A stretch of 53,632 nucleotides of DNA, taken from assembly GCA_027013145.1 (NCBI GenBank), contig JALUXX010000037.1, positions 1 through 53,632 on the forward strand, written 5' to 3'. A program made the translations under genes and the position numbers. Source of the DNA: Gammaproteobacteria bacterium. Its GTDB lineage: Bacteria; Pseudomonadota; Gammaproteobacteria; 21-64-14. The notes under the pieces were generated by a model that searched no databases, was not told the DNA's origin, and saw only the letters and a list, made by a program, of their open reading frames with translations. Shown piece after piece: positions 1,401 through 29,276 of this stretch; the first letter of the stretch is position 1; every line of letters starts with the position of its first letter.

Positions 1401-2624
1401 CTACGCGCGCAACAGCGGGTGCGCCGCCAACAGCCGTTCGAGCGCGGCGGGGATCTCCTCCCGCACCGGCCCGGGCTGCGGGGCGTCGGTGCGGTGGGTG
1501 AACAGTTTCCCGAAATAGTCCGCATCCTCGTCCAGGTCCCAGTCCACGGCGCGCAACAACTGCGCGCCGGCGGGCGGCAGGGCACGGGGCAGGGTGCGCC
1601 CGGACAGCAGCGCCCACACCCCGGTCCAGCAGCGCGCCAGGGCCAGGGGATGGTAGCCGCCCCCGCCCAGGACCAGCAACCGCGCCGCCCCTCCCGGACC
1701 CGTGGGCGCCCCGGCGAGCACCGCCGCGACGACCTCGAGGAAGACGTCGGTCGAGATGCGCAGTTTGCCGAGCGGGTCCGGCAGCAGGATGTCGGTACCG
1801 GCCTGCAACACAACCGCGTCCGGGCGGAAGTGTGCGCGAACCGCCGGCCACAGGGTGCCGAACGCCAGCCGGTACTCGCTGTCGTTGGCGGCCCGCGGGA
1901 GCGGGAAGTTGACCGCGTTGCCGCCGCCGTAGTCGTCGATCCCGCCGCCGGCGAAGGGGTAGGCGTAGGCGGTGTCCATGTGCAGCGAGAGCGTCGCCGT
2001 CCCGGGATCCGCCGCGCAGGCCTCCTGCACGCCGTCGCCGTGGTGGGCGTCGATATCGACGTAGAGCACGCGCAGGCCGGCGCGCCGCAGGCGCCGGATC
2101 GCGAGGACCGGGTCGTTGAAGAAACAGAAGCCGCGCGCCTGATCGGCACGCGCGTGGTGCATCCCGCCGGCGGGACTGAAAGCCGCGCGTCCGGTCAGCA
2201 CCGCCTCCGCGCCCTGGACGCTGCCGCCCGCGGCGGTGGCCGGGGTGCGGAAGAATCCGGGGAAGTAGGGGTTCTCGTAGTTGCCGATGTTGTGCCGGCG
2301 CCGGTAGCGGTCGGGGACCTTGCCGAGCGCCTCGCACCGGCGCATGGCGGTGACGTATTCGGGCGTGTGAAAGCCGAGAAGCTCCGCGTCCGTCGCGCAA
2401 CGCGACTCGAGGTACTCCTCCGCGCGCAGGGCCCCGTAGCTGCGGATCAGGTCCACCGTAAGCGATACCCGCGGAATGGCGAGGGGATGGTGATCGCCGT
2501 AGCTCGCACGCCGGTAGCGATCGGCGGCGATCAGCACCGCCGGGCGGGTCGGTGCCGGACCGTCGTCGGCCGCCGCACGGGTTTGTCTCCCGCCGGCCGG
2601 CAGCGCCCGGGAGTGCACGCTCAC
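1401..2624 (-). CDS. Histone deacetylase / AcuC-type zinc amidohydrolase
   Basis: A 407-residue arginase/deacetylase-fold protein. Visible active-site elements are the His pair in PAGGMHHARAD, the metal ligands in VDIDAHHGDGVQ, the second Asp site in QAGTDILLPDPLG, and the glycine-tyrosine loop LGGGGYHP. The family hydrolyses N-acetyl groups from protein lysines, polyamines or small amides; acetoin-utilisation AcuC is one branch and the true substrate here is unknown. Its ATG overlaps the cbbO stop by 4 bp, so the two are probably translationally coupled. That places a deacetylase in the same operon as a Rubisco-activase-type pair. Confidence 0.88.
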   Translation of the reverse strand: MSVHSRALPAGGRQTRAAADDGPAPTRPAVLIAADRYRRASYGDHHPLAIPRVSLTVDLIRSYGALRAEEYLESRCATDAELLGFHTPEYVTAMRRCEALGKVPDRYRRRHNIGNYENPYFPGFFRTPATAAGGSVQGAEAVLTGRAAFSPAGGMHHARADQARGFCFFNDPVLAIRRLRRAGLRVLYVDIDAHHGDGVQEACAADPGTATLSLHMDTAYAYPFAGGGIDDYGGGNAVNFPLPRAANDSEYRLAFGTLWPAVRAHFRPDAVVLQAGTDILLPDPLGKLRISTDVFLEVVAAVLAGAPTGPGGAARLLVLGGGGYHPLALARCWTGVWALLSGRTLPRALPPAGAQLLRAVDWDLDEDADYFGKLFTHRTDAPQPGPVREEIPAALERLLAAHPLLRA

Positions 2625-5167
2625 GCCGCGCCTCCACGCCGCAGCCGCAGGTAGATCTCCGGCAGCCGCTGCGGCAGCCGGTCGACGTCCTCGAGGACGA
2701 GATAGTGTCCGACGCCGAAGATCGCCGGCAGGTACGTCCCGGCGCGCGGATCGAGCGTCACGCAGAAGGCGTGGATCCCGGCGTCGCGCGCCTCCTTCAT
2801 GGCCAGGCGCGTGTCCTCGTGCAGATAGCGCAGGTCGCCGCCGTCGTCGTAGTCGGCCGGGCGCCCGTCGGAGAGGATCAGTAGCAGCCGCCGCTGCGCC
2901 GGCGCCGCGCGCAGCTCATCCACCGCGCGGCGGATCGCCGCCCCCATGCGGCTGGCGAGACGCCCGGTGAGCCCGGCGATGCGCGCGCGCCGGTCGGCGT
3001 CGAGGGGTTCGTCGAATGCCTTGATGCGGTAGTACTCGACGCCGTCGTGGTATTTCGAGGCGAACCCGCGAACGGCGCAGGGATCGCCGACCTCCTCAAG
3101 GGCGTCGGCGAATACCAGCAGCGCGGCGCGCAGGCGGTCGACGACGCGCCCGCCCCCGTCGGGCGTCGTGGCCATGATCGAGGTCGAGAGGTCGGCCAGC
3201 AGCAGCACCGCGGTGTCGCGCCCGCGCGCCGCGCGACGGACGTAGACGTCCGGGCGCGGGGCGAGGCCGGCGCGGCGCGCCACGACGTAGTCCACGGCGG
3301 CGTCGAGATCGAGATCCTCGCCGTCGGGGCGGCGGCGCAACGGCGCGCGGCGCACCGGGCGCTGGCGCTGGAGCGCGCGCCGGAGCCGGCGCCGCAGGTG
3401 CGCCGTCGCCTCCCACATCCGCGCGGCGCCCGCCGCATCGTGCTCGCGCAGCTCGCAGTCGTGCACGCGCGCCCAGCCCTCCCGGTAGGCCTGCGCGCGG
3501 TAGTCCCACTCCGGATAGGCACGCCCGCCCCGGCGCGGGGCCCGGGGCGCGGGCGACGGGGGGACGCGGGCGACGGAGCCCACACCGGCGCCCCGGGCCC
3601 CGCTGCCGCCCATGGCCCCGCGCGATTCCACGCGCGGATTCCGCCCTGCCCGCGCACCTGCGGGCACGGCGGCGGGGCGCCGGGTGTGCGCCTCCCCGGC
3701 GCCCTCGTCCCCCGCCCCCGCTGCGGCGGCGTGCGCGGCGGCGACGGCCCCGGCCGGGCGCGGCGCGTTGGGGCCGCGACCCGGCAGATGGAAGGCCGCG
3801 GCCGGAGCCGGCCCGGCGCCGTCCGCGTCCGTTTCCGCCCCTTCGGGCCCGCCCGTCTCCCGAAACCACGCCCGCGCGCACGCGAACGCCGTCGCGACCG
3901 TCGCCTCCGGCGCCGCCAGCGGGGCCAGGCGCGGACCCAGGGCATCGGCCGGGTGGTCGGCATCCAGCGCCCCGAGGCCCGCGCACAGGGCGTCACGCAG
4001 CCGCCCGGCGTACCCCGACGGGCGCGGGGCGGCGCGGGCGAGGCGTTGCAAGCGCTTGGCGTAGCCCGGAATCCGCCGCGCGAGACGGAGGTCCACGCGC
4101 AGGTCCTCGCACAGGTCGAACACGGCGCGGAAACGCCCGTCCGCCTCCCCCGTGACGGACGCGCACCGCCGCGTCCACGCCTCCGCAGGCCCCTCTCCGG
4201 GCCCGCCGGAACCCGCCTCGGCGGCGAGCGCGTGCGGCTCGTAGGTGCCGTAGACGAGGTGCCCCGCCGCGTGCAGCACCCCGAGCACCGCGGCCTCGCG
4301 ATCGGGGAAGACCGCGGGCAGCCACAGGCGGCGCCCGTCGGTCTCGACCGCCGCCGCACCGCCCCCCGGGCGCCAGTCGCTCTCGCGCCAGGCGCGCGCC
4401 GCCTCGGGCAGCGCCGCGCCGAACCACGCCTCGAGCAGCAGGCGCAGGAGACGCCCGCGGCGCCGCACGGAAAAGCCCGGCATCAGCTCGAACAGCGAAT
4501 CGAGCCCCTCGCCCTCGAGCCGGAAGTAGCGCTCGCCGCGGGTGCGCGCCGCGCGCAGCACGTCCGCCCCGCGCGCGGCCCAGCGCGCGAAGGTCCCGGC
4601 GTCGACGGTGCCGCGCAGCCGCAGGGCCGCATCCAGGTATGCGCCGAGCGCCGTGCCCCCCTCGCCGAGGGACTCCGCAGGCGCCAGCAGGGCCTCGAGG
4701 GCCTCCACGCCCGCGCCTGCCCCGGCCAGCGCCTCGAAGGGGGTCTCGAAGTAGCGCCCCCCGGCCCCGGCGTCGCGCACGGTCCAGCGCCGCCCGAGGT
4801 CGAACCAGCGCCGCTCCCCCGCCCCGCCCCAACGCGCGCGCACCGCCCCGGCCTGGGCCATGAAACCCTCGACCGCCCGCCACGCCCCGCGCACGCGCCC
4901 CAGCGACAGCGCCTGCTCGAGCCACGGATCCAGCCCCGCAAAGGCGCCGGCCAGGGCCGGCGTGCCGCGCCAGAAGGCCCGGCCGGCATCGCGGTCGCGC
5001 AGGAACAGCTCGCGCCCGGCCTCCAGCCAGCGCGCCGCGCCGGCCGCCTCGACCGCGCGCACCGCCGGCAACGCCGCGCAGGCGTCCCGGTGCGCGACGT
5101 AGCTCACCGCCTCGAGCTGCGCGAGGATCTCCTCCTCGGGAGTGTCCGGCTGCGCGCGATCGGTCAC
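2621..5167 (-). CDS. cbbO: CbbO/NorD-type von Willebrand factor A protein
   Basis: About 848 residues from GTG 5167. The C-terminal ~220 residues form a VWA domain with the MIDAS motif DLSTS and the later segments RLLLILSDGRPADYDDG and AFCVTLDP. The middle (roughly residues 400-530) is low-complexity Pro/Ala/Gly. CbbO partners the AAA+ protein CbbQ, and in autotrophs the pair removes inhibitory sugar phosphates from Rubisco; the NorD branch acts on nitric oxide reductase. No Rubisco or nor gene lies in the window, so the client is inferred. An ATG at 5230 would overlap cbbQ by 47 bp; GTG 5167, 16 bp past the cbbQ stop, fits better. Confidence 0.85.
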   Translation of the reverse strand: MTDRAQPDTPEEEILAQLEAVSYVAHRDACAALPAVRAVEAAGAARWLEAGRELFLRDRDAGRAFWRGTPALAGAFAGLDPWLEQALSLGRVRGAWRAVEGFMAQAGAVRARWGGAGERRWFDLGRRWTVRDAGAGGRYFETPFEALAGAGAGVEALEALLAPAESLGEGGTALGAYLDAALRLRGTVDAGTFARWAARGADVLRAARTRGERYFRLEGEGLDSLFELMPGFSVRRRGRLLRLLLEAWFGAALPEAARAWRESDWRPGGGAAAVETDGRRLWLPAVFPDREAAVLGVLHAAGHLVYGTYEPHALAAEAGSGGPGEGPAEAWTRRCASVTGEADGRFRAVFDLCEDLRVDLRLARRIPGYAKRLQRLARAAPRPSGYAGRLRDALCAGLGALDADHPADALGPRLAPLAAPEATVATAFACARAWFRETGGPEGAETDADGAGPAPAAAFHLPGRGPNAPRPAGAVAAAHAAAAGAGDEGAGEAHTRRPAAVPAGARAGRNPRVESRGAMGGSGARGAGVGSVARVPPSPAPRAPRRGGRAYPEWDYRAQAYREGWARVHDCELREHDAAGAARMWEATAHLRRRLRRALQRQRPVRRAPLRRRPDGEDLDLDAAVDYVVARRAGLAPRPDVYVRRAARGRDTAVLLLADLSTSIMATTPDGGGRVVDRLRAALLVFADALEEVGDPCAVRGFASKYHDGVEYYRIKAFDEPLDADRRARIAGLTGRLASRMGAAIRRAVDELRAAPAQRRLLLILSDGRPADYDDGGDLRYLHEDTRLAMKEARDAGIHAFCVTLDPRAGTYLPAIFGVGHYLVLEDVDRLPQRLPEIYLRLRRGGAA

Positions 5168-5183
5168 CGGTGCGCGCCGCGGC

Positions 5184-6074
5184 TCAGGCCGGGGGATCGT
5201 CCGCCGGGCGCGGGGCGGCGGGGGCCGCATCCGGGCCGAAATGGGCGTCGACGATCTCCTCCAGGGCCGCGACCAGTTCCGGGTCGTCGGTGAGCGGATG
5301 GACCATCGCCGCGCGGCACGCCGCGGCCGGGGCGAGTCCGGCCTGCATGAGCTGGGCGGCGTAGACCATGGCGCGGGTCGACGTCGCCTCCTCGAGCCCG
5401 TGGTCCTTGAGCCGGCGCGCCCGGCGCCCGGCCGCGACCAGGGAATCGATCACCCCGGCGGGCAGACCGCCGGCCTCCTGCGCGACGATCGCGCGCTCGG
5501 CCGCCGCATCGGGATAGTCGAAGGCGATCGCGACGAAGCGCTGCTTGGTGGAGGGCTTGAGGTCCTTGAGCACCGTCTGGTAGCCCGGGTTGTAGGAGAT
5601 GACCAGTTGAAAGTCCTCGTGGGCCTCGACCACGCGGCTCTTGCGGTCCAGGGGCAGCCGGCGGCGGTGATCGGTCAACGGGTGGATCACCACCGTGGTA
5701 TCGGTGCGCGCCTCGACGATCTCGTCGAGGTAGCAGATCGCCCCCTCCCGCACCGCCCGCGTGAGCGGACCGTCCTGCCAGACCGTGGCATCGCCTTCGA
5801 GCAGGAACCGCCCGACCAGGTCCGCGGCGGTCAGGTCCTCGTGGCAGGCGACCGTGACCAGGGGGCGTCCGAGCCGGTGCGCCATGTGCTCCAGAAACCG
5901 GGTCTTGCCGCAGCCGGTCGGGCCCTTGAGCATGACCGGGAGCCGACGCCGGCTGGCCGCCTCGAAGACGGCGATCTCGTTGCCCTGGGGAAGATAGAAC
6001 GGCGCCGCGCCCGGTTCGGGCGCGGCGACCGCGTCGCGTTCCCCGCCGCGCACCCGGTCGAGCAGCTTCTTCAT
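5184..6074 (-). CDS. cbbQ: CbbQ/NirQ/NorQ AAA+ ATPase (MoxR class)
   Basis: A 296-residue MoxR-type AAA+ ATPase. Walker A is GPTGCGKT at residues 51-58, Walker B is ICYLDEI, and an arginine-rich sensor region follows in [14 protein letters not shown]. The motif [20 protein letters not shown] is typical of CbbQ/NorQ. It works with the VWA partner encoded immediately downstream as a motor that remodels a metabolic enzyme. ATG 6074 is chosen because GAGGT lies 8 nt upstream; the in-frame ATG at 6080 would leave only 2 nt. It heads the minus-strand operon and diverges from the gene at 6232. Confidence 0.9.
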
Positions 6075-6160
6075 GCGCATCTACCTCGAAGCGGGGGGCC
6101 GAAACGGAACGGGAGGACCGGGCCCTCCCGGCGGGGCGTGTGCGGCCCGCCGCGGAGCGG

Positions 6161-6189: not shown

Positions 6190-6231
6190 GGGCGCGCGAA
6201 ACGGCGCGGGACCTGAATGAGGGCAGGGGCA

Positions 6232-6543
6232 GTGATCAAACGGATTCTACTGAACAACGTCCAATACAACCCCAACCGCGACCCCCAGTTCTACCGTCGC
6301 ACCGTGGGAGAGGAGTTCCGCCTCCAGGTGTTCCTGGACGGGAGCGGACGCGCGCAGGCCCGCCTGGAGGCGGAAGGCACGGCGCTGTGCGAGGCCGAAG
6401 TCGCGCTGCCCGGGACCTTCGACTGCCGCTTTCGTTTCGACCGGCCGGGCACGCGCGTGGGCACGGTCACCGTCGTGCGCGACGGCGAGACCATCCGACA
6501 GGACATCCGCCTGGACGTCGAGGCCCACGCCTGGGTCGGTTGA
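6232..6543 (+). CDS. Small uncharacterised protein (103 aa)
   Basis: I do not recognise this family. From GTG 6232 the product begins VIKRILLNNVQYNPNRDPQ. It is largely beta-strand-like, without a signal peptide or membrane segment, and ends in paired strands around GTVTVVRDGE and IRLDVEAH. GTG 6232 has GAGGG 8 nt upstream; ATG 6217 would add five residues and lacks a good ribosome site. It is the only plus-strand gene between the cbbQO operon and the unknown-gene operon at 6578-9470, and it has its own near-consensus promoter. It converges with the gene ending at 6578. Confidence 0.6.
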   Translation: MIKRILLNNVQYNPNRDPQFYRRTVGEEFRLQVFLDGSGRAQARLEAEGTALCEAEVALPGTFDCRFRFDRPGTRVGTVTVVRDGETIRQDIRLDVEAHAWVG

Positions 6544-6577: not shown

Positions 6578-7063
6578 TCAGTGCAGCAGTTCCCGCCCGC
6601 GCCGGTACAGTTCCTCGGCCTTGGCCTCGTCGATGGTGAGCTTCACCACCTTGCGGCAGGATTCCAGGCAGGTCGCGAGACCTTCCTCGGAATCCGGGGC
6701 CTCGCGCAGCTTGCGCACGACCTTGCCGGCGTCGGGCCCGAGGATCTCCCCGGCGAGCCCGATCAGCCGCTCCCGCACCCCCGCCGCGGCGTTACCGTTG
6801 CGCGGCGCCGGGGCGTCGTCGACCGATGCGCCCGGGGCGGGGACCCCGTCGCCGGCCGCATGCACCAGACCCTGGCGCTGCAGTTCCTCCAGGATCTCCT
6901 CCAGATCCGGGATACCGGCGCTGCGTGCCTTGAGCTGGGCCACGGACGAGCGCCCGTCCACGAGAATCAGCACGCGCCGCTGATTGAACGGCAGCCCGCA
7001 ACTGCGGTGCTCGATCTCGTCCTTGCCCTTCTCCGTCTTGAAGAAGATCGTCTCGATGTCCAT
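6578..7063 (-). CDS. Uncharacterised protein, possible winged-helix N-terminus (161 aa)
   Basis: No family recognised with confidence. The N-terminal ~70 residues (IFFKTEKGKDEIEHRSCGLP, then NQRRVLILVDGRSSVAQLKA) look like an alpha/beta winged-helix fold seen in some cytoplasmic regulatory proteins. A Pro/Ala-rich linker follows, then a helical C-terminal half with two cysteines (CLESCRKVVKL). No membrane segment is present. It ends the minus-strand gene run that begins at 9470, 29 bp after the membrane protein gene. A regulatory or accessory role is inference only. Confidence 0.65.
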   Translation of the reverse strand: MDIETIFFKTEKGKDEIEHRSCGLPFNQRRVLILVDGRSSVAQLKARSAGIPDLEEILEELQRQGLVHAAGDGVPAPGASVDDAPAPRNGNAAAGVRERLIGLAGEILGPDAGKVVRKLREAPDSEEGLATCLESCRKVVKLTIDEAKAEELYRRGRELLH

Positions 7064-7092: not shown

Positions 7093-7392
7093 CTACTCGG
7101 TCAGCTCCTGGATGATGGTGTAGATGAGCTTCACCGTGATGATCACGTAGATCGCGCCGCCCAGGAACACGAACGAGACGATCATCCGCAGGATCTCGTC
7201 CGGGATGCGGTTGAAGAACGGCAGCGCCATGTACCCCGCGGTGAACATCGCCACCAGCAGGATCACGATGTTCCACTTGCTCCCGACCACCCCTCCGGGG
7301 ATCTGACTCTTCAAGGAGACCACCATCCACATGCAGTACAGCATGGCGGCAATCGCGATCGTAATCACGACTGTAACGGGATCGAACTCCAT
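7093..7392 (-). CDS. Small inner-membrane protein, about three TM helices (99 aa)
   Basis: The 99-residue product has three hydrophobic segments: around VTVVITIAIAAMLYCMWMVV, IVILLVAMFTAGYMALPFF, and MIVSFVFLGGAIYVIITVKL. It is almost certainly an integral membrane protein. Start ATG 7392 has AGGAGA close upstream. No family is recognised. The 196-bp gap before the next upstream gene (7393-7588) holds no clear ORF, so the gene may have its own promoter. Confidence 0.7.
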   Translation of the reverse strand: MEFDPVTVVITIAIAAMLYCMWMVVSLKSQIPGGVVGSKWNIVILLVAMFTAGYMALPFFNRIPDEILRMIVSFVFLGGAIYVIITVKLIYTIIQELTE

Positions 7393-7588
7393 CGCCCTTC
7401 TCCTCTGAAAATCCAACGCGCTTGCAGACCAAGCCTTCAGTACATCGGCCGCTGCGGCCGGACCTTTAATAGGGGGGTCTCCCCAAGTATCGGATCCCCG
7501 GCCGCGGGCATCGATGCGCCACCCATCAGCCCCTGGGACAGCGGCAGGCAGGCGGGCGAGTGAAGTCCCGGAAGGGTACGGATCGGCG

Positions 7589-7984
7589 TCAGGCGGGGCC
7601 GCCCCAGCCGTAGCGCTCGAAGAGCGCCGGCAGCAGCTCCAGGAGGGCGTCCCGGTCGAGGAGGCGGTCGGCCCGCGCCAGGCGCATCTCGTCCCGCAGG
7701 GCCGCGTCGCCCCCGAAACAGAATACGGGGAGGTTGATCTGGTGGACCACCCGCAGCTCGCGGATGACATCCAGGGGATCGAAGGCGTCGATCTCGTCGA
7801 GATCGAGGATCAGGAACCGGTACAGCAGGATCTCGTGCCAGTCCCCGAGCGCCTCGAGCTCGGTGACCCGGCGCAGCTCCCACCCCGCCGGCATGCGCTC
7901 GCGGACCGCCGCCTCCATGGCCTCGTCCCGGCTCATCAGGACGAGGCGCCGGCGCAGGCGCTGCTCAATCGTCGGCCGGTTCAT
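7589..7984 (-). CDS. Receiver-like (response-regulator fold) protein, 131 aa
   Basis: From ATG 7984 the product is 131 residues with an alternating beta/alpha pattern like a CheY receiver. RLVLMSRDEAME resembles strand 1, and FLILDLDEIDAFDPLDVIREL resembles the phospho-acceptor strand, with an Asp-Leu-Asp. LPVFCFGGDA occupies the strand-4 position. The last residues (LLDRDALLELLPALFERYG) resemble the final helix. No DNA-binding domain is attached. The start overlaps the end of the lipoate-ligase-like gene by 20 bp, which suggests coupled translation. A signalling role is inferred from fold only. Confidence 0.55.
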   Translation of the reverse strand: MNRPTIEQRLRRRLVLMSRDEAMEAAVRERMPAGWELRRVTELEALGDWHEILLYRFLILDLDEIDAFDPLDVIRELRVVHQINLPVFCFGGDAALRDEMRLARADRLLDRDALLELLPALFERYGWGGPA

Positions 7985-9014
7985 CCCCCGCCTCCTCCAG
8001 CGTCTGCCGTGCCAACGCCACGGCGGCCTCCGCGACCCGGGCGGCACACGCACGCGCGGGGGAGCGGGCGAGCGCACCCTGCACCGCGTCGCTCCGCAGG
8101 GCCCAGGCCCCGAGGATCTCGACCTCACCTTCGCCGCCGCTCTCCCCGGGCCACCAGCCGAGGCGCACGATGCGCCCGTCCCGCAGGACCAGACGAACCG
8201 TGCCGGGACACCCGCCGCGCTCGACGAGGAAGACCCGCTCCCGGATCTTCACTCCGCCGGAAATCCGTCGCCGGCCGGCGGCAGTCTCGCGCTGGTCCAG
8301 TTCCGCGCGGGCGGCGGGCAACGCCGCCGTCTCCGCCGACGTCAGACCCGATGCGGCGAACGACCAGCCCATCTCCGCGGCCACCACATCGCGAAAGCGC
8401 GCCTCGAGCGCAACCGCGTCGGGTCGTACCCCTTCCCGCGCCCAGTCGGTCATCCCGTCTTCGAGTTCCCGGCGCAGCCAGTCGCGGAAACCGGGGCTCG
8501 GGGCCCGCACCGCGGTCGCGAACGCCGCGACATCGAAGCGCAACAGGAAACTCGCCCCCCACAGGTACACCGCACCGAGGCTCGCCGCCCCGCTGCCCAG
8601 GATCTTGCGCCCGTTCACCCACAGGTCGGTACCGCCCCCCGGCGCCGCGGCGATCCCGAAGCCCGCGCAGGTCACCGCCGCCGTCGTCAGGCAGCGCTCC
8701 AGGAATCGCGCGCGCGCGGCGGGCGCCGCGCGCCGCGGCACGACGAAGATGAAGCACCACTGCCATGGATCCACCCACACCGCCCCGCCGCCGAGCGGGC
8801 GCCGGTGTACCGGCAGGCCGGCCGCCCGGCACGCCGCCAGGTCGAGTTCGGCCGCCGCGTCCTGGGCCGCGCCGATGCACAGGTGCGCCCGGTCGCAGCA
8901 CCCCCACAGCACGGCCGGGGCGTCGTCCGGTCCCATGCACTCGCCCACGGCCTGCGCCGAGGCGTAGAAGGTCCCGGGGGCGACCCGGCCGAGGTGAACC
9001 CAGCGCGCCCGCAC
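7965..9014 (-). CDS. Lipoate-protein ligase A-like protein, second copy
   Basis: A 349-residue member of the biotin/lipoate ligase (BPL/LplA) family. The lipoyl-AMP loop HRRPLGGGAVWVD is at residues 70-82, and the conserved lysine lies in TDLWVNGRKILGSG (Lys137). The last ~130 residues (GGVKIRERVFLVE, VRLVLRDGRIVRLGWWPG) resemble the accessory LplB-like domain of sulfur-oxidiser ligases. It is clearly different from the ligase at 19115-20218, and the start is GTG 9014. It sits among unknown genes rather than beside a lipoyl-domain protein, so its acceptor and even its acyl substrate are open. Confidence 0.75.
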   Translation of the reverse strand: MRARWVHLGRVAPGTFYASAQAVGECMGPDDAPAVLWGCCDRAHLCIGAAQDAAAELDLAACRAAGLPVHRRPLGGGAVWVDPWQWCFIFVVPRRAAPAARARFLERCLTTAAVTCAGFGIAAAPGGGTDLWVNGRKILGSGAASLGAVYLWGASFLLRFDVAAFATAVRAPSPGFRDWLRRELEDGMTDWAREGVRPDAVALEARFRDVVAAEMGWSFAASGLTSAETAALPAARAELDQRETAAGRRRISGGVKIRERVFLVERGGCPGTVRLVLRDGRIVRLGWWPGESGGEGEVEILGAWALRSDAVQGALARSPARACAARVAEAAVALARQTLEEAGDEPADD

Positions 9015-9026
9015 GGGCGGCCCGCA

Positions 9027-9470
9027 TCAGCCGCCTTCGTGCCCGGCCGGGTCACCGCCGGTCGGATCGGGCGCCGCGTCCCCGTGCGCCCCGTCCTCGG
9101 CCTCGAAGAAATGCTCGAAGTAGAAGTCCCGCCGGCGCAGCTCCTGGTAGAGCGCGGCGCGGTCGCGCACGCCCTGCTCCAGGATCTTCGCCAGGGCCGC
9201 ACCCTGGGCGTGGTCGACGATGTGCATGTGCCCGACGAGGTCCTGGTCGGGGTCGAGGAAGTGGGCCGCGAACTCATCGGGGTCGGCGACGTGGAGCAGG
9301 AACGATTCGCATTCGGGATCCTCGGGCGCGAGCGGCTGCAGCGTCACCTTCCCCAACCAGGCGATACGCGCCACCTGGTTGAACTGCCAGATGTCGAACT
9401 TCTTCCCCTTTTTGTAGCGGTTGAGTTCGTTGCGGATCGCGTTGAGGTTGGTGACGTTGAGGGATTTCAT
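9027..9470 (-). CDS. Uncharacterised soluble protein (147 aa)
   Basis: I do not recognise this family. The N-terminus MKSLNVTNLNAIRNELNRY is lysine/arginine-rich and helical. The middle has DPDEFAAHFLDPDQDLVGHM with acidic residues and two histidines, and the tail after FEAEDG is low-complexity Gly/Asp. No signal peptide or TM segment is visible. ATG 9470 has AGGAGA about 12 nt upstream. The gene lies 12 bp upstream of the lipoate-ligase-like start, so co-transcription is likely. It diverges from the FadL-type gene at 9726. Confidence 0.65.
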   Translation of the reverse strand: MKSLNVTNLNAIRNELNRYKKGKKFDIWQFNQVARIAWLGKVTLQPLAPEDPECESFLLHVADPDEFAAHFLDPDQDLVGHMHIVDHAQGAALAKILEQGVRDRAALYQELRRRDFYFEHFFEAEDGAHGDAAPDPTGGDPAGHEGG

Positions 9471-9725
9471 GGGCCGTTACCCGTCTCCTGGTCGCCGGAT
9501 CCCGCCATTCTCCCCCACTGCGGCCGCGAATTAAACCGCGGGGCGGCGCGGTTTCCCTCCCGGTCACGAACCGCCCCGGACCGCCGGGATCGCGCACAGC
9601 GGACGGTCCCAAAACCCGCTACAATAATGCCACATAACCCGTTGAAGCCGGTCGCGTTGCCGCCGATGACGGGCGCGCGGGCGAGGACAACGTCAACAAC
9701 AACGGCAGGGGAAGGAGGGACGGAG

Positions 9726-11078
9726 ATGAGCAGACTGACCACCCGGGCGCTGTGCGCGTTGTCGATCACCGGCGCCCTGTGCGCGGCGACCACCGCCTAC
9801 GGCGCCGGCTTCGCGATCACCGAGCAGAGCGGCAGCGGCATGGGCAACGCCTTCGCCGGGGCCGCGGCGAGCGCGCAGGACGCGAGCACGATCTACTTCA
9901 ACCCCGCCGGCATGACCCTGCTGCCGGACCGTCAGGTCGTCGGCGCGCTAAACTTCATCGATCCCTCGACGAAGTTCACCGGGACCTCCAAGCTGATCCC
10001 GGCCTTCGGCGGGGGGACGATCAGCGGCGGCGACGGCGGGCAGCCGGCGCTCCTCGGGATCGTCCCCAACTTCTACGCGCAGATGCAGGCGCTGCCGCGC
10101 TGGCGCGTGGGCCTGGGACTGAACGCCCCGTTCGGCCTGCGCACGGACTACCCGGAGAGCTGGATGGGCCGCTACCAGGCGGTCAAGTCCGACCTGAAGA
10201 CGATCAACATCAACCCCGCCGTGGCGTTCGCGGCGACCGATCAACTCTCGATCGGCGTCGGCCTCGACATCCAGTACGCGGACGCCACCCTGACCAACGC
10301 GGTGGACAACTCGGCGGTGTGTCTCGGAACCCCGGCCCTGGCCGCGGGCTGCGGCCTGTTCGGGCTCACCACCCCCGGCAATCCCTCGACCGACGGCTTC
10401 GCCCGGGTCTCGGGCGACGACTGGGCGCTCGGCTACAACCTGGGGATTCTCTACGCGCCGGTGCCGGGTACGCGTTTCGGGTTGAGCTACCGCTCGAAGG
10501 TCCACCACACCCTGACGGGGACCGCGCGCTTCTCCAACATGCCGACGCTGTTCACGAGCAACGGGTTATTCGTCAATACCGGGGCTCAGGCCGAAATCAC
10601 CTTGCCGGAGACGGTCTCCGGCGGCGTCTACCACGAGGTCGACTCACACCTGGCGGTCATGGGTGGGTTCACCTGGACGCACTGGTCGCGCTTTGAAAAC
10701 CTGGTCATCCAATACGACCAGGGCCTGCAGGGACCGACGGTGCAGCGCGAGTCGTGGCAGAACACCTGGCGCTTCTCAGTGGGCGCGAACTACCGCTACA
10801 ACGACCGCCTCACCCTGCGCGGCGGGCTGGCCTACGACCCGACGCCCATCCCCGACCCCTCGCACCGTACCCCGCGCATCCCAGGGGCGACGCGACGCTG
10901 GCTCGCGGTCGGGGCGAGCTACGCCTTCAACCCGGCGCTGCGCTTCGATCTGAGTTACGCCCACCTGTTCGTCAGCAACAGTTCGACCAACGATCTCGGC
11001 AGCCCGGGGCACGTCCTCGCCGGCACCAACGAATCGGACGTCAATCTGTTCAGTGCGCAGGCGGTGTGGTCCTTCTGA
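9726..11078 (+). CDS. FadL/OmpP1-type outer-membrane transport protein
   Basis: A 450-residue protein with a signal peptide (cleavage likely after TAYGA, about residue 26), followed by the FadL N-terminal hatch signature: FAITEQSGSGMGNAFAG, then DASTIYFNPAGM. Alternating beta strands of a 14-stranded barrel follow, ending in the aromatic terminus VWSF. Family members let hydrophobic compounds cross the outer membrane. The start has GGAGG upstream. It is single-gene and plus-strand, in the same orientation as the exported-protein gene at 11335. Two more family members lie at 39074 and 42621. Confidence 0.9.
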   Translation: MSRLTTRALCALSITGALCAATTAYGAGFAITEQSGSGMGNAFAGAAASAQDASTIYFNPAGMTLLPDRQVVGALNFIDPSTKFTGTSKLIPAFGGGTISGGDGGQPALLGIVPNFYAQMQALPRWRVGLGLNAPFGLRTDYPESWMGRYQAVKSDLKTININPAVAFAATDQLSIGVGLDIQYADATLTNAVDNSAVCLGTPALAAGCGLFGLTTPGNPSTDGFARVSGDDWALGYNLGILYAPVPGTRFGLSYRSKVHHTLTGTARFSNMPTLFTSNGLFVNTGAQAEITLPETVSGGVYHEVDSHLAVMGGFTWTHWSRFENLVIQYDQGLQGPTVQRESWQNTWRFSVGANYRYNDRLTLRGGLAYDPTPIPDPSHRTPRIPGATRRWLAVGASYAFNPALRFDLSYAHLFVSNSSTNDLGSPGHVLAGTNESDVNLFSAQAVWSF

Positions 11079-11134: not shown

Positions 11135-11334
11135 ATCGGGATCCGCAAACGGCCACTCAGAGGGTTCAAGGCGCCGCTTTGCGCGCCCCGGGTTCTGTGA
11201 TACTTTTCGGCGCAGGGTCCGGGCTCCGGACCCCGTGCCCGGAGCCCGCTTTCGCGGGTAGAGCGGTGATCGTTCACGGCGATTCGATACAACACAGGAC
11301 GACGCGCAGGAACGTGCTATTGGAGGAGAAAACA

Positions 11335-12291
11335 ATGAAAACGGCAGCATCTCTGTTCAGGACTCTCGTATTCGCGGCCGGCCTGCTGACGCTTGGGCTC
11401 GGCCAGGCCTCGGCGGCCAAGCTCAAACCGTTCATCCTCGCCTACACCACACCCTCCGGGGACGTGGCCGCGGTGGCGGCGAAGGTCAAGGATCAACTCA
11501 CCAAGGCCGGCTTCCAGGTCGTCGGCAGCTACGCCCCGTATACCAACGCCAAGTTCTCCAACGGCGAGGTGGTGTCCGCCGAGGTCATCGGTGTCACCGA
11601 CAAGGCGATCCAGGACGCGGCGGCGCAGACCAAGTTCGGCGGCTTCGCCGTCGTCCAGCGCGTGACCGTGACCAAGGTGGACAAGAACGGCAAGGTGGAG
11701 ACCCAGGTCGCCTACACCAACCCCGTCTACATGGCCAACGCCTACCGTCTCAAGAGCGACATGTCCGACGTGCTCGCACAACTCTCCAAGGCGCTCGGCG
11801 ACCAGGAGCAGTACGGCCCGGCCGAGGGCCTCAGCCCTTCGGCCCTGCGGGACTACCATTACAAGTGGCTGATGCCCTACTTCGACGACCGCTGGGACCT
11901 CGGCAGCTACGGCAGCTACCAGGACGCCCTCAAGGCGATCAATGCGGGGCTCGCCGCGCACAAGGGCGGCGCCAGCAAGGTCTACGAGGTGGCGGTGCCC
12001 GGCAAGGACGAGACCCTGTTCGGCGTCGCGCTCTCCGGGCCGAAGAACAACGAGTGCAGCGGCGACGAGTACATCATGAGCCGGATCGACTTCAAGAACA
12101 TCAAGTCCACCGGTCACCTGCCCTACGGCATCCTGGTCCTGGGGAACAAGGCCTACGCGCTGCGCGCCAAATTCCGCATCGCGATCAACTTCCCGGACCT
12201 GAGCATGATGGGCTCCAACAGCTTCATGAGCATCATGTGCGCCCCGGGCTCGATCGAGACGGCGCTCAAGGCAGTCGCCGGCAGCTCCTGA
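11335..12291 (+). CDS. Exported protein of unknown function, DUF302-like N-terminal half
   Basis: A 318-residue protein with a clear signal peptide (hydrophobic TLVFAAGLLTLGLG, cleavage near QASAA). The mature N-terminal ~110 residues alternate strands and helices (FILAYTTPSGDVAAVAAKV, then ITQ-less helix and KAGFQVVGSYAPY) in a manner resembling DUF302-like domains. The C-terminal half contains a Cys pair far apart (NNECSGDEYIM and SIMCAPGSIE) that could form a periplasmic disulfide. No enzyme motif is seen. TGGAGGAGAAAACA precedes ATG 11335, and a strong terminator follows the stop. The gene probably forms a single-gene unit. Confidence 0.75.
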   Translation: MKTAASLFRTLVFAAGLLTLGLGQASAAKLKPFILAYTTPSGDVAAVAAKVKDQLTKAGFQVVGSYAPYTNAKFSNGEVVSAEVIGVTDKAIQDAAAQTKFGGFAVVQRVTVTKVDKNGKVETQVAYTNPVYMANAYRLKSDMSDVLAQLSKALGDQEQYGPAEGLSPSALRDYHYKWLMPYFDDRWDLGSYGSYQDALKAINAGLAAHKGGASKVYEVAVPGKDETLFGVALSGPKNNECSGDEYIMSRIDFKNIKSTGHLPYGILVLGNKAYALRAKFRIAINFPDLSMMGSNSFMSIMCAPGSIETALKAVAGSS

Positions 12292-19114: not shown

Positions 19115-20218
19115 TCACCCACGGCCGGTGCCGGCGACGGCCGCCGCGGGCGCGGCGAGGGCGCGTTCGACCACGGTGGCGAAATCCGCCGGGGCGAGGT
19201 GGAGCATCTGCACCGGATAGGCGGCGAAAAACTCTTCGATGCGTGCCCGTACGTCCGCGCACGGCGCGTCCTTGAGGGCCGCCTCGAGGTCCGGGACCAT
19301 CCGCGCCGGAGTGACGAAGAAGTCGCCGGTGATCCACAACTGGGTGATCCGCCGCGCATCCGGATCCAGGCACACATGGGCGCGCAACAGCCCGCCCCGG
19401 GTTCGATGGACGCCTGCGCGCACGCCCGACCCCGTCGGCGCATGGTCGCGCTGATAGACCCATTCGGGCGCGGCGATCTGCGCGTGTGCCGCGCGCAGGC
19501 GGCGCTCCTCCTCGGGACTCAGACCGGCCGGCTCGAAGGCGACGCCGAAGGCCGTGCCGAAGGCCGCGGCCAGGGCCTCCTGCACCGCCGCGAGCGGCGG
19601 CGCCCGCCCCCCGAGCAGTTCGCGCAGGCTGGTGACACGCTCGCGCGCGGAGCGCAGCGCCTTGTCGGATAGCTTCTCCGCCGGGACCCGCAGCACGCGC
19701 AGCATGCGCTCGAGGTCGAAGTCGACGAGCACGGTGCCCTGATAGAGGAGCGAGTCGCCGTCGAAGGCCCCGCCGGTCCCCGAGATCTTGCGCCCGTCGA
19801 CCTCGATGTCGTTGCGCGGGCGAAACCGGGCGTCGACTCCGAGGCGCCGCAGACCCTCCGCGGCCGCCTCGCAGATACGCGCCGCCACGGCCCCCATGTC
19901 GGCGCTGCCGGCGGCCGCCTTGTCCAGGTACAGCTCCCAGCCGATCTGACTCGGATCGAAGTAGATCGCGCCCCCGCCGGTGATACGCCGCTGGATCTCG
20001 ATCCCCTCGCGCCCGCAGTAGTCCGTGCGCAGCTCCTGGCGCACGCTCTGGTGGAACCCCACCAGGGCCGACGGCGTGAAGCGCAGGAAGCGCAGGGTAT
20101 GGGGCGAGAAGCCTTCCTGATGCGCCTCGAGCAGCGTGCGGTTGAGGGCGATATTCTCCGCCGCCCCGCGCAGCCCGGTATCGAGGAGCCGCCAGCGATC
20201 GCGGCGGCCGGCGCTCAT
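19115..20218 (-). CDS. lplA: Lipoate-protein ligase of sLpl(AB) type
   Basis: A 367-residue BPL/LplA-family enzyme. The nucleotide/lipoate loop RRITGGGAIYFD is at residues 77-88, and the conserved lysine is in NDIEVDGRKISGTGG (Lys144). The catalytic domain is followed from about residue 245 by an accessory domain (GVHRTRGGLLRAHVCLDPD and LWITGDFFV), matching the fused LplA-LplB form found with sHdr. It is expected to attach octanoate or lipoate to LbpA. Its ATG overlaps the lipS1 stop by 4 bp. The lbpA genes lie just upstream in the same operon. Confidence 0.88.
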   Translation of the reverse strand: MSAGRRDRWRLLDTGLRGAAENIALNRTLLEAHQEGFSPHTLRFLRFTPSALVGFHQSVRQELRTDYCGREGIEIQRRITGGGAIYFDPSQIGWELYLDKAAAGSADMGAVAARICEAAAEGLRRLGVDARFRPRNDIEVDGRKISGTGGAFDGDSLLYQGTVLVDFDLERMLRVLRVPAEKLSDKALRSARERVTSLRELLGGRAPPLAAVQEALAAAFGTAFGVAFEPAGLSPEEERRLRAAHAQIAAPEWVYQRDHAPTGSGVRAGVHRTRGGLLRAHVCLDPDARRITQLWITGDFFVTPARMVPDLEAALKDAPCADVRARIEEFFAAYPVQMLHLAPADFATVVERALAAPAAAVAGTGRG

Positions 20219-21418: not shown

Positions 21419-21856
21419 TCAGCAGCCGCCGAAGCCCTCGGCCTCCATCTTGGCCTCGAAGGCCGCGAGCGCGTCGGCGCCGGTCTTGAGGTCGGCGGAA
21501 TCGGCGTCCCAGTCCGCGGGCTTGATCTTGACCAGCCAGCCGCCGCCGTAGGGATCTTCGTTGATCAGCGAAGGCTTGGCGGCCACCGCGTCGTTGATCG
21601 CCGTGATCTCCCCCGCCACCGGCGCCTTGGCCGGACCCACCCACTTGCCCGATTCGACGGTGGTGCAGGACTTGTCCTTCTTGACGTCCTTGCCGACCTT
21701 CTTCGGCGTATAGGAGACGATCTGCCCGGCCAGCGAGGCCGCATATGCGGTCAGGCCGACGGTCACCGTGCCGTCGCTCTCCCGCCGCGCCCAGACGTTG
21801 TTCTCGACGTTGTAGAAGAGATCCTCCGGGAAGTTGCAACCACGTACGGCGCCCAT
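21419..21856 (-). CDS. lbpA2: Lipoate-binding protein LbpA2 (GcvH-like)
   Basis: A 145-residue GcvH-like lipoyl protein. The lipoylated lysine is Lys71 in the motif TTVESGKWVGP. It has an N-terminal Cys in VRGCNFPEDLFY, a lysine-rich loop (PKKVGKDVKKDK), and a C-terminal tail ending in FGGC. In the sHdr pathway the lipoyl group is thought to carry sulfur intermediates, unlike glycine-cleavage GcvH. GAGGAGGCAGAG precedes ATG 21856. The dsrE-like gene is directly upstream and lipS1 downstream, so substrate and loading enzymes are co-encoded. Confidence 0.9.
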   Translation of the reverse strand: MGAVRGCNFPEDLFYNVENNVWARRESDGTVTVGLTAYAASLAGQIVSYTPKKVGKDVKKDKSCTTVESGKWVGPAKAPVAGEITAINDAVAAKPSLINEDPYGGGWLVKIKPADWDADSADLKTGADALAAFEAKMEAEGFGGC

Positions 21857-22338: not shown

Positions 22339-22384
22339 GGCACCCTCCAGCGGCATCGCAGGTCCGGCCCCGCCCGGTTCGGCG

Positions 22385-22885
22385 GGCACCCGTAAGGCGG
22401 GCCTTGGCCCGCCGGCGTCGTCCGACCCGAACGATTTACACCGATCCACGGCGTCGGCCCGCAGGCCGGGCAAGCCCGGCCCTACAACCGCCAGCGACGT
22501 CCGGCATCGGGATATCCGTCCGCGGGCGGCGCCCTTCGAAAAACAGAGGAAGGCGCCATGGAATCCACGGAACCCACGGACCGGTTTCATTCTTTCCGTG
22601 CGTTCCGTGGGGTCCGTGGCCTCTCCCTGCGACCTCGGCCGGGCAACCCCGGCCCTACCCCGTGTCCCACGCCGACCCGGACACCCGTGGGACGGGCCTT
22701 GGCCCGCCGGCGACGTTTAACCCAAACCACATCGGTCCGATCACCGGCGTCGGCCGGGCAACCCCGGCCCTACCCCGTGTCCCACGCCGACCCGGGCACC
22801 CGTGGGACGGGCCTTGGCCCGCCGGCGTGACCCAAACGATTTCACACCGATCCACGGCGTCGGCCGGGCAAGCCCGGCCCTACGT
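22385..22885. repeat. Family-A repeat island inside the sHdr/lip cluster
   Basis: Several copies of GGGCCTTGGCCCGCCGGCG and CGTCGGCCGGGCAAGCCCGG-type hairpins fill most of the 541-bp gap between the dsrE-like gene and lbpA1. Two GTGGGACGGGCCTTGGCCCG starts are 115 bp apart (22687 and 22802). A family-C fragment lies at 22555-22625. The outer end supplies the stop codon of lbpA1 (22880-22882). Confidence 0.85.
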
Positions 22886-23326
22886 CGGTTCGCGCCGGCA
22901 GTGGATATCCTCGCTGCGCGCCCGCGCGCAATACCCCTCGCGTGCCGCATCGCCGGTGAGAAATTCCGCCAGCGCCGCTTCGGCGCCGGCGCTCGCGCGC
23001 ACGCGCGCCACCCAGGCGCCGTAGGGGTCGGAGTTCAGGAGCCCGGGGCGCTCCAGCACCTCGGCGTTGCCCTCCACGATTTCACAGTCGAAGAAGTTCG
23101 GGATCGGGCCCGCCCACTTACCGCTTTCGATCGTCGCCACCGGCTTCCCGGGCGGGCGCCGCGTGCCGGGTCGGCGCACGCGCACATGCAGGATCCTGCC
23201 GGCGATCGTCTGCGAGAGGTCTGTCATGCCCACCGTCAGGGTACCGTCGGATTCCCTGCGCACCCAGATCTGGAATTCCGCGTCGTAGTAGAGTTCGGGG
23301 CGGAACTCGCAGCCGTTGCAATCCAT
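22880..23326 (-). CDS. lbpA1: Lipoate-binding protein LbpA1 (GcvH-like)
   Basis: A 148-residue GcvH-like protein with the lipoyl lysine Lys70 in ATIESGKWAGP. It differs from LbpA2 in an N-terminal CxxC (MDCNGCEF) and an Arg/Pro-rich loop where LbpA2 is Lys-rich. Its C-terminus carries extra Cys residues (EGYCARARSEDIHC). The last codon is followed by TAG contributed by the end of a palindromic repeat, so the C-terminus may have been reset by the insertion. It follows hdrB2 by 33 bp, and two LbpA paralogues in one locus suggest different partners. Confidence 0.88.
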   Translation of the reverse strand: MDCNGCEFRPELYYDAEFQIWVRRESDGTLTVGMTDLSQTIAGRILHVRVRRPGTRRPPGKPVATIESGKWAGPIPNFFDCEIVEGNAEVLERPGLLNSDPYGAWVARVRASAGAEAALAEFLTGDAAREGYCARARSEDIHCRREPT

Positions 23327-23359
23327 GAGGATGGCGTCCCCTGCCCGCGTGCGGCGGGC

Positions 23360-24271
23360 TCAGATCACGCCTTTGTCCTTCAGGAAGTCGATCGAGTCGC
23401 TGACGTTCTCGTGGATCCCGAGCTTGCGCGCGGACAGCCCCATCGCCAGTCCCAGGAGCTGCGTGAAGTAGATGACCTTGACCTGCGTCTTGATGCCGAA
23501 CTCCTTCTCGGCCCGGACCTGGTGCATCTCCAGCCCCGAATGGCAGGTGGGACACTCGGTGGCGATGACTTCGGCGCCCGAGTCCTCCGCCGACTGCAGC
23601 AGGTTCAGCACGAGCTGCGTCGAGGTGTCCGCGTCGGAGAGCGTATGGGCCCCGCCGCAGCACGCCGTCTTGAGCGGATAGTCGACGTTCACCGCGCCGG
23701 CCGCTGCCAGCAGATCGTCCATGAAATGCGGCTGATAGCTCGACTCCGAGCCCGGCCCCTGGTCCTTTTCGGGGAAGATCTGGCGCGGGCGGGTATACAT
23801 GCAACCGTAGTAGTTGGCGATCTTGATGCCGTTGAGACTCTTGGTGAGCCGCTGCTTGATACCCTCCGGCCCGAGTTCCTCCATGAGCCACTCGAGCAGG
23901 TGCAGCGTGCGCACGTCGCCCTTGTAGACGGGGTCGTCGGCCTTGCGCGCGAGATCCTGGACGGTCTCCATCGCCTGCTCGGAGGTCGCCAGCTCGAACT
24001 CGGCCTTCTTGAGATTGTGATAGCAGCCGTTGCAGGGCGCCATGACGGCGTCGAGACCCATCTGCTCGCTGGCGATCGCGAGATTGCGCGCGGAGAGGTA
24101 GGTCTGGAGCATCGGATGGACGTTCTTGACCTCCATCGCCCCGCAGCAGTTGTAGTCGCGCAGGTTGACCATGTCGAGGTCGAGCGCCTTGACCAGGGCG
24201 CGGGTCGAACGATCGTACGGCCCGCCCGAACCCTCGAGTGCACATCCCGGATAGTAGGCCACCTTGGTCAT
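23360..24271 (-). CDS. shdrB2: sHdrB2, CCG-domain subunit
   Basis: A 303-residue HdrB-like protein with two CCG domains. The Cys motifs are YYPGCALEG, YNCCGAMEV, APCNGC, then YYGCMYTRP, TACCGGAHT and TECPTCHSGLEM. In methanogen HdrB these bind noncubane [4Fe-4S] clusters. In the sHdr complex they are thought to act on sulfane-sulfur or disulfide substrates in the cytoplasm. Its ATG shares one base with the hdrC2 stop (TAATG), so the two are translationally coupled. It is the last core sHdr subunit of the operon. Confidence 0.9.
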   Translation of the reverse strand: MTKVAYYPGCALEGSGGPYDRSTRALVKALDLDMVNLRDYNCCGAMEVKNVHPMLQTYLSARNLAIASEQMGLDAVMAPCNGCYHNLKKAEFELATSEQAMETVQDLARKADDPVYKGDVRTLHLLEWLMEELGPEGIKQRLTKSLNGIKIANYYGCMYTRPRQIFPEKDQGPGSESSYQPHFMDDLLAAAGAVNVDYPLKTACCGGAHTLSDADTSTQLVLNLLQSAEDSGAEVIATECPTCHSGLEMHQVRAEKEFGIKTQVKVIYFTQLLGLAMGLSARKLGIHENVSDSIDFLKDKGVI

Positions 24272-25023
24272 TACGCCGCCTCCTTCGCCTGCCGGGCCTG
24301 CTGCCGGCGCTCGCGCGCCTCGGCCTCCTGCTGTTCCACGAACTCGCGCAACACCTTCCCCGTGCGACCCCAGGAGCGCGTCCGCGGTGTGAACACGAAG
24401 TTCATACCCATGCGGAACAGGTGCGCGAACGGGAGGTGTTTGATCATCCGGGTCGTGAAGGCCGTGAGCCATTCCTGGATCAGGGGCTGCTTGGTCTTCT
24501 TGAAAAAGCCCATGATGACGTGCGCATCCTCGATCCGCCCGGTCCGCTCGACCTGTTCCCAGAACTCTTCGTCGAACAGATGCGAGGGCTTGACTTCAGT
24601 GTGCCCCTCGTCCTCGAGCCAGTGGGCCAGCGCCTTCATCACTCCTTCCGGGCGCACATCCTTGGGGCAGATGTTGGTGCACTTGTTGCATGAGACGCAT
24701 TGCCAGATGATGTCCTTGTCTTTGATGATCTCGTCCTTGAGGCCGAGCCGCGTCAGGTAGATCCAGTAGCGCGGATTGAAATCGGTGTTCACCGCGTACA
24801 TCGTGCAGGAGTTGGTGCACGAGCCGCACTGCCAGCAACGGTGCACGTTCTCGCCGCCGCCGTAGCTCTGAATGATCTTCTCGAAATCGTCGTCGTAGTC
24901 CGCGATGTAGCGCGGCTTGATCATGGTGTTCCAGTGACCGGACACGTCGACGCCGTCGACCACCAACGAGTCGTGCTCCATGATCCGGTCGGCGTCGATC
25001 AGCGACTTCTCGTGAATTGCCAT
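24271..25023 (-). CDS. shdrC2: sHdrC2, iron-sulfur electron-transfer subunit
   Basis: A 250-residue HdrC-like protein. Two ferredoxin-type cluster motifs are visible: CWQCGSCTNSC (residues 63-73) and CVSCNKCTNICP (109-120). The C-terminal part is helical and ends in a charged coiled segment (FVEQQEAEARERRQQARQ). It transfers electrons between the HdrA flavin and the CCG subunits. GGAGAG precedes ATG 25023. It lies between shdrH and shdrB2 in the conserved order. Confidence 0.9.
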   Translation of the reverse strand: MAIHEKSLIDADRIMEHDSLVVDGVDVSGHWNTMIKPRYIADYDDDFEKIIQSYGGGENVHRCWQCGSCTNSCTMYAVNTDFNPRYWIYLTRLGLKDEIIKDKDIIWQCVSCNKCTNICPKDVRPEGVMKALAHWLEDEGHTEVKPSHLFDEEFWEQVERTGRIEDAHVIMGFFKKTKQPLIQEWLTAFTTRMIKHLPFAHLFRMGMNFVFTPRTRSWGRTGKVLREFVEQQEAEARERRQQARQAKEAA

Positions 25024-25070
25024 CGTGCTCTCCGTAACTCCAGGCCGCGCCCCGGTCCCGGGGTCCGCCG

Positions 25071-25952
25071 CTAGTGCACCGTAGCCCTTTTCGCCCGCGA
25101 TCGCCCCCCGCGCCGGTGCGGGTCGATCCCCAGCATCTTGGCGACGAACTCGAGCGGGTCGTTACGCGCCCCCAGCTCGGCCGCGAACACCCCGACGCCT
25201 TTCGCCATGTCCTGCACGTAGTCCGCGTACGCCTTGGCCAGCAAGAGATCGATCAGGAACGGGACGTCGCGGTAGTAGCCCTCCTCGGACAGAAAACCGG
25301 CGATGTCCCGCCGCGCGCCTTCGAACATCTCCGGCCGGCCGTCGAGCGGGATGTTGCGCATCGTATCGTTACCGCGTACCAGCTCGCGCAACGCGCCCGA
25401 CATCGTGTTCACGTCCCACACCCACCGGCTCATGAGCGGATACTGCACCGGCTCGCGATAGTGCAGCAGCTCCGCCCCGAAATCCCAGGCCGCGCGGGCC
25501 TCTTTCGCACCCTTGACCCCCAGCGCCCCCGCGAAGCCCTCCAGGCGTTCCGCCAGCGGCGCCTCTCCGTACAGCAGCTCGCGTATCGCCGCGGCGATGC
25601 GGTCGAGGTCCAGCCCCTGGAACGCCCCCGGAAGACGCCGCCGCGCGGTGAAAACGGTCTCCAGCAGCGCGTCGAGTCCCTCCTGATCGATCGTCCCGAG
25701 CGCCTCCGGCGCCAGCAGGCGCGCAAACAGCTCATGCTTGCGGGTCAGCGCCTCCAGAAACGGCGCCAATCCCGCCGTACCGGCGTCGTCATCGCCCGTA
25801 CCGGCATCCGCCGCCTGGGCGGACTCTTCCTGCAACGCTGCGAGCTTGCGCGCACAGATCGCGCGGTCCAGCGCGAGCGGCAGCGGCGCCGGATCGATCG
25901 CGTCGCGTGCCGCCGGGGCGGCCTCAGCCGGCTTTTTTCCGAGCCAGAGCAT
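25071..25952 (-). CDS. shdrH: Conserved sHdr-cluster protein of unknown role (hyp / sHdrH position)
   Basis: A 293-residue, mostly helical protein with no recognised catalytic motif and no membrane segment. In type-I sHdr loci a conserved hypothetical sits exactly between hdrA and hdrC2, and this one does too. The start MLWLGKKPAEAAPA at 25952 overlaps the end of shdrA by 29 bp. The middle segment LLHYREPVQYPLMSRWVWDVN is a tryptophan-rich conserved-looking block. Function is unknown; a structural or assembly role in the complex is inference. Confidence 0.75.
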   Translation of the reverse strand: MLWLGKKPAEAAPAARDAIDPAPLPLALDRAICARKLAALQEESAQAADAGTGDDDAGTAGLAPFLEALTRKHELFARLLAPEALGTIDQEGLDALLETVFTARRRLPGAFQGLDLDRIAAAIRELLYGEAPLAERLEGFAGALGVKGAKEARAAWDFGAELLHYREPVQYPLMSRWVWDVNTMSGALRELVRGNDTMRNIPLDGRPEMFEGARRDIAGFLSEEGYYRDVPFLIDLLLAKAYADYVQDMAKGVGVFAAELGARNDPLEFVAKMLGIDPHRRGGRSRAKRATVH

Positions 25953-28388: not shown

Positions 28389-28436
28389 GATCTGCCTCCT
28401 GAATCGATTCGGCGGCGCACCGGGGATGTCCGGTCG

Positions 28437-29120: not shown

Positions 29121-29276
29121 CCGCTTCACCTCGTCCTGGTGGGGTCGGTGCGCACCCGGATCCGGTCGCGGATCCAACGGCGCCCGAGACCCTCGGGCCA
29201 ATACCCAAGCAAATCCGTCAACTATTGTCGCGGAAGGCGGCGGCGAACGCAAGCGCCGCCGCCCCGCGCGTCCGGC

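Follow-up and report, generated by a model that had tools for sequence, protein, structure and literature searches.

The sHdr-LbpA pathway revealed an unexpected role for lipoate in sulfur oxidation, and sLpl(AB) alone has been thought to explain the maturation of its LbpA proteins. In vitro, LbpA1 and LbpA2 are both lipoylated by the sLpl(AB) of Thioalkalivibrio sp. K90mix (PMC6067878), and in Hyphomicrobium LbpA2 does not mature without sLpl(AB) (PMC10332631). Main-text passages of these papers and of a Thioalkalivibrio survey (PMC6382920) mention neither a second ligase nor the gene cassette described below. LplA of T. acidophilum (2ars, 2art, 3r07) acts in the canonical pathway and needs a separate LplB subunit.

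We analyzed a window of 53,632 nucleotides, which is the whole stretch of DNA under study, from a gammaproteobacterium. Its sHdr cluster includes sLpl(AB) (19115..20218, minus strand), LbpA2, a GcvH-fold lipoate-binding protein (21419..21856, minus strand), and LbpA1 (22880..23326, minus strand). An earlier note, made from the sequence, had proposed that a second, well-diverged ligase-like protein is encoded outside this cluster. We find that this protein, here called LIG, is real and conserved. It belongs to a known kind of enzyme, is encoded in a cassette tied to sHdr and is apparently undescribed.

The ligase-like protein

LIG (7965..9014, minus strand) begins with a GTG codon and has 349 amino acids, arranged as an N-terminal catalytic domain and an accessory domain. 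Its identity to the sLpl(AB) of the window is about 23-28%. In a profile search, residues 30-173 match PF21948 (LplA-B_cat) with 80.8 bits, where the cut-off is 27; the score for TIGR00545 is 50 bits, under the equivalog cut-off of 280. An AlphaFold model with 43 relatives as input (pLDDT 89.4, pTM 0.88) has the same two-part layout, including strands and helices in the C-terminal accessory domain. The top solved matches to this model are chains of T. acidophilum LplA (VIA Z 28.6 to 2c8m), which is the closest solved fold at about 20% identity. The profile match and the fold together make LIG a member of the LplA/LipB catalytic superfamily. Pairwise dN/dS among close relatives is 0.04-0.35, with the lowest value in Thioalkalivibrio, and this purifying selection shows that LIG is not a chance ORF. 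In most pairs its dN/dS is higher than that of the neighboring genes for protein A and CbbQ.

The genome encodes four PF21948 proteins, namely sLpl(AB), LipB (contig C62), LIG and an LplA-domain protein joined to DUF116. The last of these (G000 contig C65:103516-104112, locus L004) adjoins a U32-peptidase/UbiV-like gene.

The gene cassette

Orthologues of LIG in two genomes (G020 and G027; 39-40% identity) led to a common cassette with the conserved order A-ligase-C-(D)-(E)-CbbQ-CbbO-histone-deacetylase-like. In the window, LIG lies between protein A (9027..9470, minus strand, 147 aa) and protein C (7589..7984, minus strand, 131 aa), whose gene shares 20 bp with the end of LIG. Protein A, whose gene runs 4 bp into the ligase start in loci L015 and L017, always adjoins LIG or C, and at some C loci it abuts C with no ligase between them. 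It has no Pfam match, and its modelled structure has no fold match in the PDB, the lipoyl-domain fold included. Protein C has a receiver-like pattern that lacks the full receiver set of acidic, Thr and Lys residues. The Response_reg family matches one of 20 members at E 0.15, and the receiver-like neighbor proposed earlier is therefore plausible. Two further neighbors that had been named as LIG's context, a small membrane protein (7093..7395, minus strand) and a 161-aa unknown protein (6578..7063, minus strand), lie outside the conserved cassette and persist in a related genome without the ligase (G001, discussed below).

Protein D (6217..6543, plus strand) is an unknown protein of 108 aa that is on the opposite strand in other cassettes too, and protein E was not found within the window. 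The genome has three CbbQ_C genes, and the one in the cassette encodes a CbbQ-type AAA+ ATPase with AAA_5 and CbbQ_C domains (5184..6080, minus strand). It is followed by a CbbO/NorD-like protein whose match to VWA is weak and whose CobT_C score lies just under the cut-off (2621..5230, minus strand), and by a histone-deacetylase-family protein, H (approximately 1407..2555, minus strand), that has 70% identity to the L015 copy, a member of Pfam Hist_deacetyl. The AAA+/VWA pair is homologous to the CbbQ/CbbO rubisco activase (PMC8718961). However, the cassette contains no rubisco genes and the pair is found beside a ligase in sulfur oxidizers, so its target may be something other than rubisco. 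In the window, the pair (2621-6080) lies next to the histone-deacetylase-like gene, not in a rubisco locus. Two ligase-bearing cassettes (L058 and L060) have phosphoenolpyruvate carboxylase where CbbQ/CbbO would stand.

The cassette is often extended upstream by FadL and a secreted-looking protein, either of which adjoins A in many cassettes, and downstream by an aldo/keto reductase. The window has a FadL/TodX outer-membrane transporter (9753..11078, start approximate, plus strand) and a secreted-looking protein of about 320 aa with the motif KLKPFILAY (11332..12291, start approximate, plus strand). We found no relevant literature that links FadL, CbbQ or CbbO with sHdr, subscription papers aside.

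A specific tie between LIG and the CbbQ/CbbO pair was considered and rejected. The counts (37/0/4/18) suggested one, but each trait changes only three times on the tree, and the association is therefore not significant once relatedness is taken into account.

Association with sHdr

Among 369 gammaproteobacterial genomes, protein C occurs in 20 and sHdrB2 in 21, and 19 genomes have both. Thus, the cassette protein is present in 19 of the 21 sHdr genomes versus one of the 348 others. The exceptions are G167 and G321, which have sHdr without C, and G336 (75% complete), which has C without sHdr. A contig scan for C gave 67 loci, mainly in Thioalkalivibrio, Ectothiorhodospira, Acidithiobacillus, Acidiferrobacter-like organisms and Acidihalobacter. 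A search of plasmid records gave no match, and a search of 398 Pseudomonadota genomes at E<=1e-45 found no relative except the window's own.

The cassette often directly adjoins sHdr genes. In the window, LIG is about 10 kb from sLpl(AB), so its earlier description as outside the sHdr cluster holds locally, but in nine other genomes the cassette lies downstream of the sHdr-linked sLpl and LipS-type genes, no more than a few kb from sLpl. A separation of LIG from the sHdr system is not supported, given this co-occurrence and the following comparison.

Our set contains one further genome of the genus, G001, which was aligned to the window (locus L020, G001 contig C25). Identity is 77-80%, with one short stretch at 86%, apart from two gaps. 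The first gap (window 7450-9676) removes A, LIG and C, and the second (window 22339-29276) removes LbpA1 and the sHdr core. G001 retains sLpl(AB), the lipoate-synthase-type radical SAM (LipS-type) genes, LbpA2, FadL and the two genes beside C. Searches of the whole G001 genome did not find sHdrB2, C or A, and the LIG profile matched only sLpl. This is one genome pair, at 96% completeness, and it could reflect loss in G001 or gain in the window genome. The comparison is most simply taken to mean that A-LIG-C serves a purpose only where the sHdr core is present, and is not required by sLpl(AB) or LbpA2. Because G001 keeps sLpl(AB), the LipS-type genes and LbpA2, lipoylation of LbpA2 may also have a role without sHdr.

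The cassette and the sHdr machinery come and go together, so LIG is probably a dedicated part of the sHdr pathway. The reading that we tentatively prefer, at slightly less than even odds, is that it is an acyl-lysine enzyme of the LplA superfamily dedicated to this sulfur-oxidation system. Some cassettes, however, have no ligase, and LbpA1 and LbpA2 are already modified in vitro by sLpl(AB) (PMC6067878).

Active-site residues

We surveyed residues in 60 copies of LIG. The window copy has both the RRxxGGG lipoate-binding loop and the catalytic lysine, found in HRRPLGGGAVWVD and GRKILGSG, with the lysine at residue 137. G48, Q51, R72 and G75-G77 are invariant in all 60 copies, and the catalytic lysine is present in 54. 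In the other six (L114, L120, L122, L123, L124 and L125), which come from Acidithiobacillus, Igneacidithiobacillus and one further MAG, it is replaced by arginine within the motif GRRIGSTGAA, where a glycine has also become serine. Two pairs of these copies are still under purifying selection (dN/dS 0.34 and 0.25).

Other positions have been lost more generally. The asparagine of the "ND" motif is kept in only three of the 60 copies, and is threonine in the window. The adenylate-loop arginine is mostly Gly, Ser or Ala (Gly in the window), and Trp244, which precedes the accessory domain, is mostly gone. The LplB model NF053749 matches none of 16 cassette ligases. It does match sLpl and seven of nine LIG2 proteins, which are standalone proteins (L159-L166 and L019) and the nearest kin of LIG on the tree. 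A single match within the cassette alignment was assigned to the included LIG2 row, L019, and has an E-value of the LIG2 type. The earlier description of the accessory region as LplB-like is therefore correct for its layout, as modelled, but not for its sequence signature. Judging from the motif losses and the dN/dS pattern, LIG is constrained yet drifting away from the ligase template.

Under the preferred reading of a dedicated sHdr enzyme, LIG would bind a lipoyl or octanoyl group in its retained RRPLGGG loop, and would then put this group on LbpA-type lysines or shift it between them. LIPT1 is a model for a transferase or relay of this sort. Such a mode of action is more likely for LIG than that of a self-sufficient ATP-dependent ligase like sLpl(AB), because the ND asparagine, the adenylate-loop arginine and the LplB signature are gone. 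The AAA+/VWA pair and proteins A and C might help to deliver or remodel the target. The arginine in place of the catalytic lysine in six copies argues against this reading.

These substitutions also bear on the main alternative, which we consider possible but on the unlikely side. LIG could be a pseudo-ligase that transfers no acyl group any more but recognizes holo-LbpA or senses lipoyl groups, and in this way acts as an adaptor that links LbpA with the sHdr complex and the CbbQ/CbbO machine. The loss of the conserved residues and of the LplB signature fits this idea, as do the six Acidithiobacillaceae-type copies that have lost the lysine under continued selection. In addition, E265, R274 and R284 of the accessory domain are conserved mainly within the LIG clade. 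On the other hand, most copies keep both the lysine and the lipoate-binding loop, and the dN/dS as low as that in Thioalkalivibrio also speaks against a pseudo-ligase.

Search for an acceptor

The cassette contains no LbpA gene. We looked for an acceptor within it by comparing how lysines of A, C, D and E are conserved in ligase-bearing and in ligase-less cassettes, and none of these proteins is acceptor-like. None of their lysines is confined to loci that have the ligase, which counts against a dedicated sHdr enzyme. It also counts against an ordinary ligase that uses a different acyl group or a non-LbpA acceptor, such as a cassette protein, as does the lack of a lipoyl-domain fold in the model of protein A. 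We regard such a ligase as doubtful, although Leu74 and His44 near the acyl loop are specific to LIG (sLpl has Thr and Ser/Cys) and the absence of an LbpA gene from the cassette would agree with another specificity.

LbpA3, a third LbpA clade that is sister to LbpA1 (support 99/95), was another candidate acceptor. Its counts against cassette LIG were 14/1/2/4 in the first 21 genomes (Fisher p 0.011). However, the association is gone in 50 further genomes (16/15/15/4), and we therefore dropped this candidate; that LbpA3 does not track LIG is a further point against the preferred reading. The half of the 50 genomes without LIG mostly belongs to one clade with its own LbpA3-linked ligase. In G000, LbpA3 (contig C65:111004-111363; locus L205:12978-13415) is located away from sHdr. 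In several genomes it is near a Crp-family regulator, a WCxxC thioredoxin-like protein and a small membrane protein.

The LbpA3-linked ligase, typified by locus L168, adjoins LbpA3 in ten Acidiferrobacteraceae-type genomes. It is about 1 kb or less from LbpA3 in L168, L242-L246 and L248-L251, where the cassettes have no ligase of their own. Like LIG, it occurs in sHdr genomes and belongs to the same wider clade. Unlike LIG, it forms a separate branch, is physically linked to an LbpA-type acceptor and keeps the ND motif. It looks like a dedicated LbpA3 ligase. Its adjacency to LbpA3 lends support to LbpA-type proteins as acceptors for the wider clade in general, but to nothing more specific.

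Phylogeny

A tree of 75 rows unites the cassette ligases, 33 after dereplication, in a single clade (support 100/99), and only the LIG2 proteins join it (100/100, stem 1.29). The clade is apart from sLpl(AB), from LplA of E. coli, S. pneumoniae and T. acidophilum, and from 5iby, which is Enterococcus faecalis LplA-2 by its PDB title. The B. subtilis LipM reference groups with LplA and away from LIG. A second tree with six L168-type ligases added agrees with the first. The references in both trees were sLpl(AB), LplA and LipM. Thus, as the earlier note had suspected, LIG is well diverged, and it forms its own, apparently undescribed branch of the ligase family.

LIG2 shares a VGSF-type motif with LIG and likewise has the adenylate-loop arginine replaced. 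By contrast, its ND motif is intact and its LplB signature mostly so, its gene neighbors vary, and it is also present in genomes without sHdr. LIG and LIG2 are not strict complements; the cassettes of Ectothiorhodospira lacustris, E. shaposhnikovii and L089 have no LIG-clade match above threshold.

It is improbable that LIG is another sLpl(AB), or an LbpA ligase with a redundant role. LIG and sLpl(AB) share their superfamily, their genomes, proximity to sHdr-LbpA genes, a full-length profile alignment, the lipoate-binding loop and usually the catalytic lysine. However, LIG forms a deep, strongly supported clade on a long stem, which the trees place apart from sLpl(AB), and it has lost the LplB signature and the adenylate-loop residues. 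It also occurs in only a subset of sHdr bacteria and is bound to the A/C cassette. An octanoyltransferase of the LipB or LipM type or a biotin ligase is highly improbable despite the common fold, as the model matches LipB (VIA Z 22.4) and BirA (13.8) less well than LplA, the BPL family has no match at E<=1, the LIG profile finds LplA structures but no LipB, LipM-like or BirA entry at E<=0.001, and LipB is encoded separately. A B. halodurans protein of the biotin/lipoate ligase family (2p5i) matches in fold only, with Z 21.5.

Implications

We can imagine a broader scheme, although we think it unlikely to be correct as a whole. A partly degenerate, dedicated ligase might cooperate with the AAA+/VWA machine, with proteins A and C and with a deacylase of the histone-deacetylase type, and together they would control the addition, movement or removal of a lipoyl-type group on the LbpA/sHdr machinery. 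If true, this would be a previously undescribed step of lipoyl relay or quality control. Regardless, a separate ligase lineage that has been inherited along with sHdr in many Thioalkalivibrio, Acidithiobacillus, Acidihalobacter and similar organisms suggests an unrecognized step in the pathway, and it marks out a group of unknown genes: A, C, D, the CbbQ/CbbO pair and the deacetylase-like protein.
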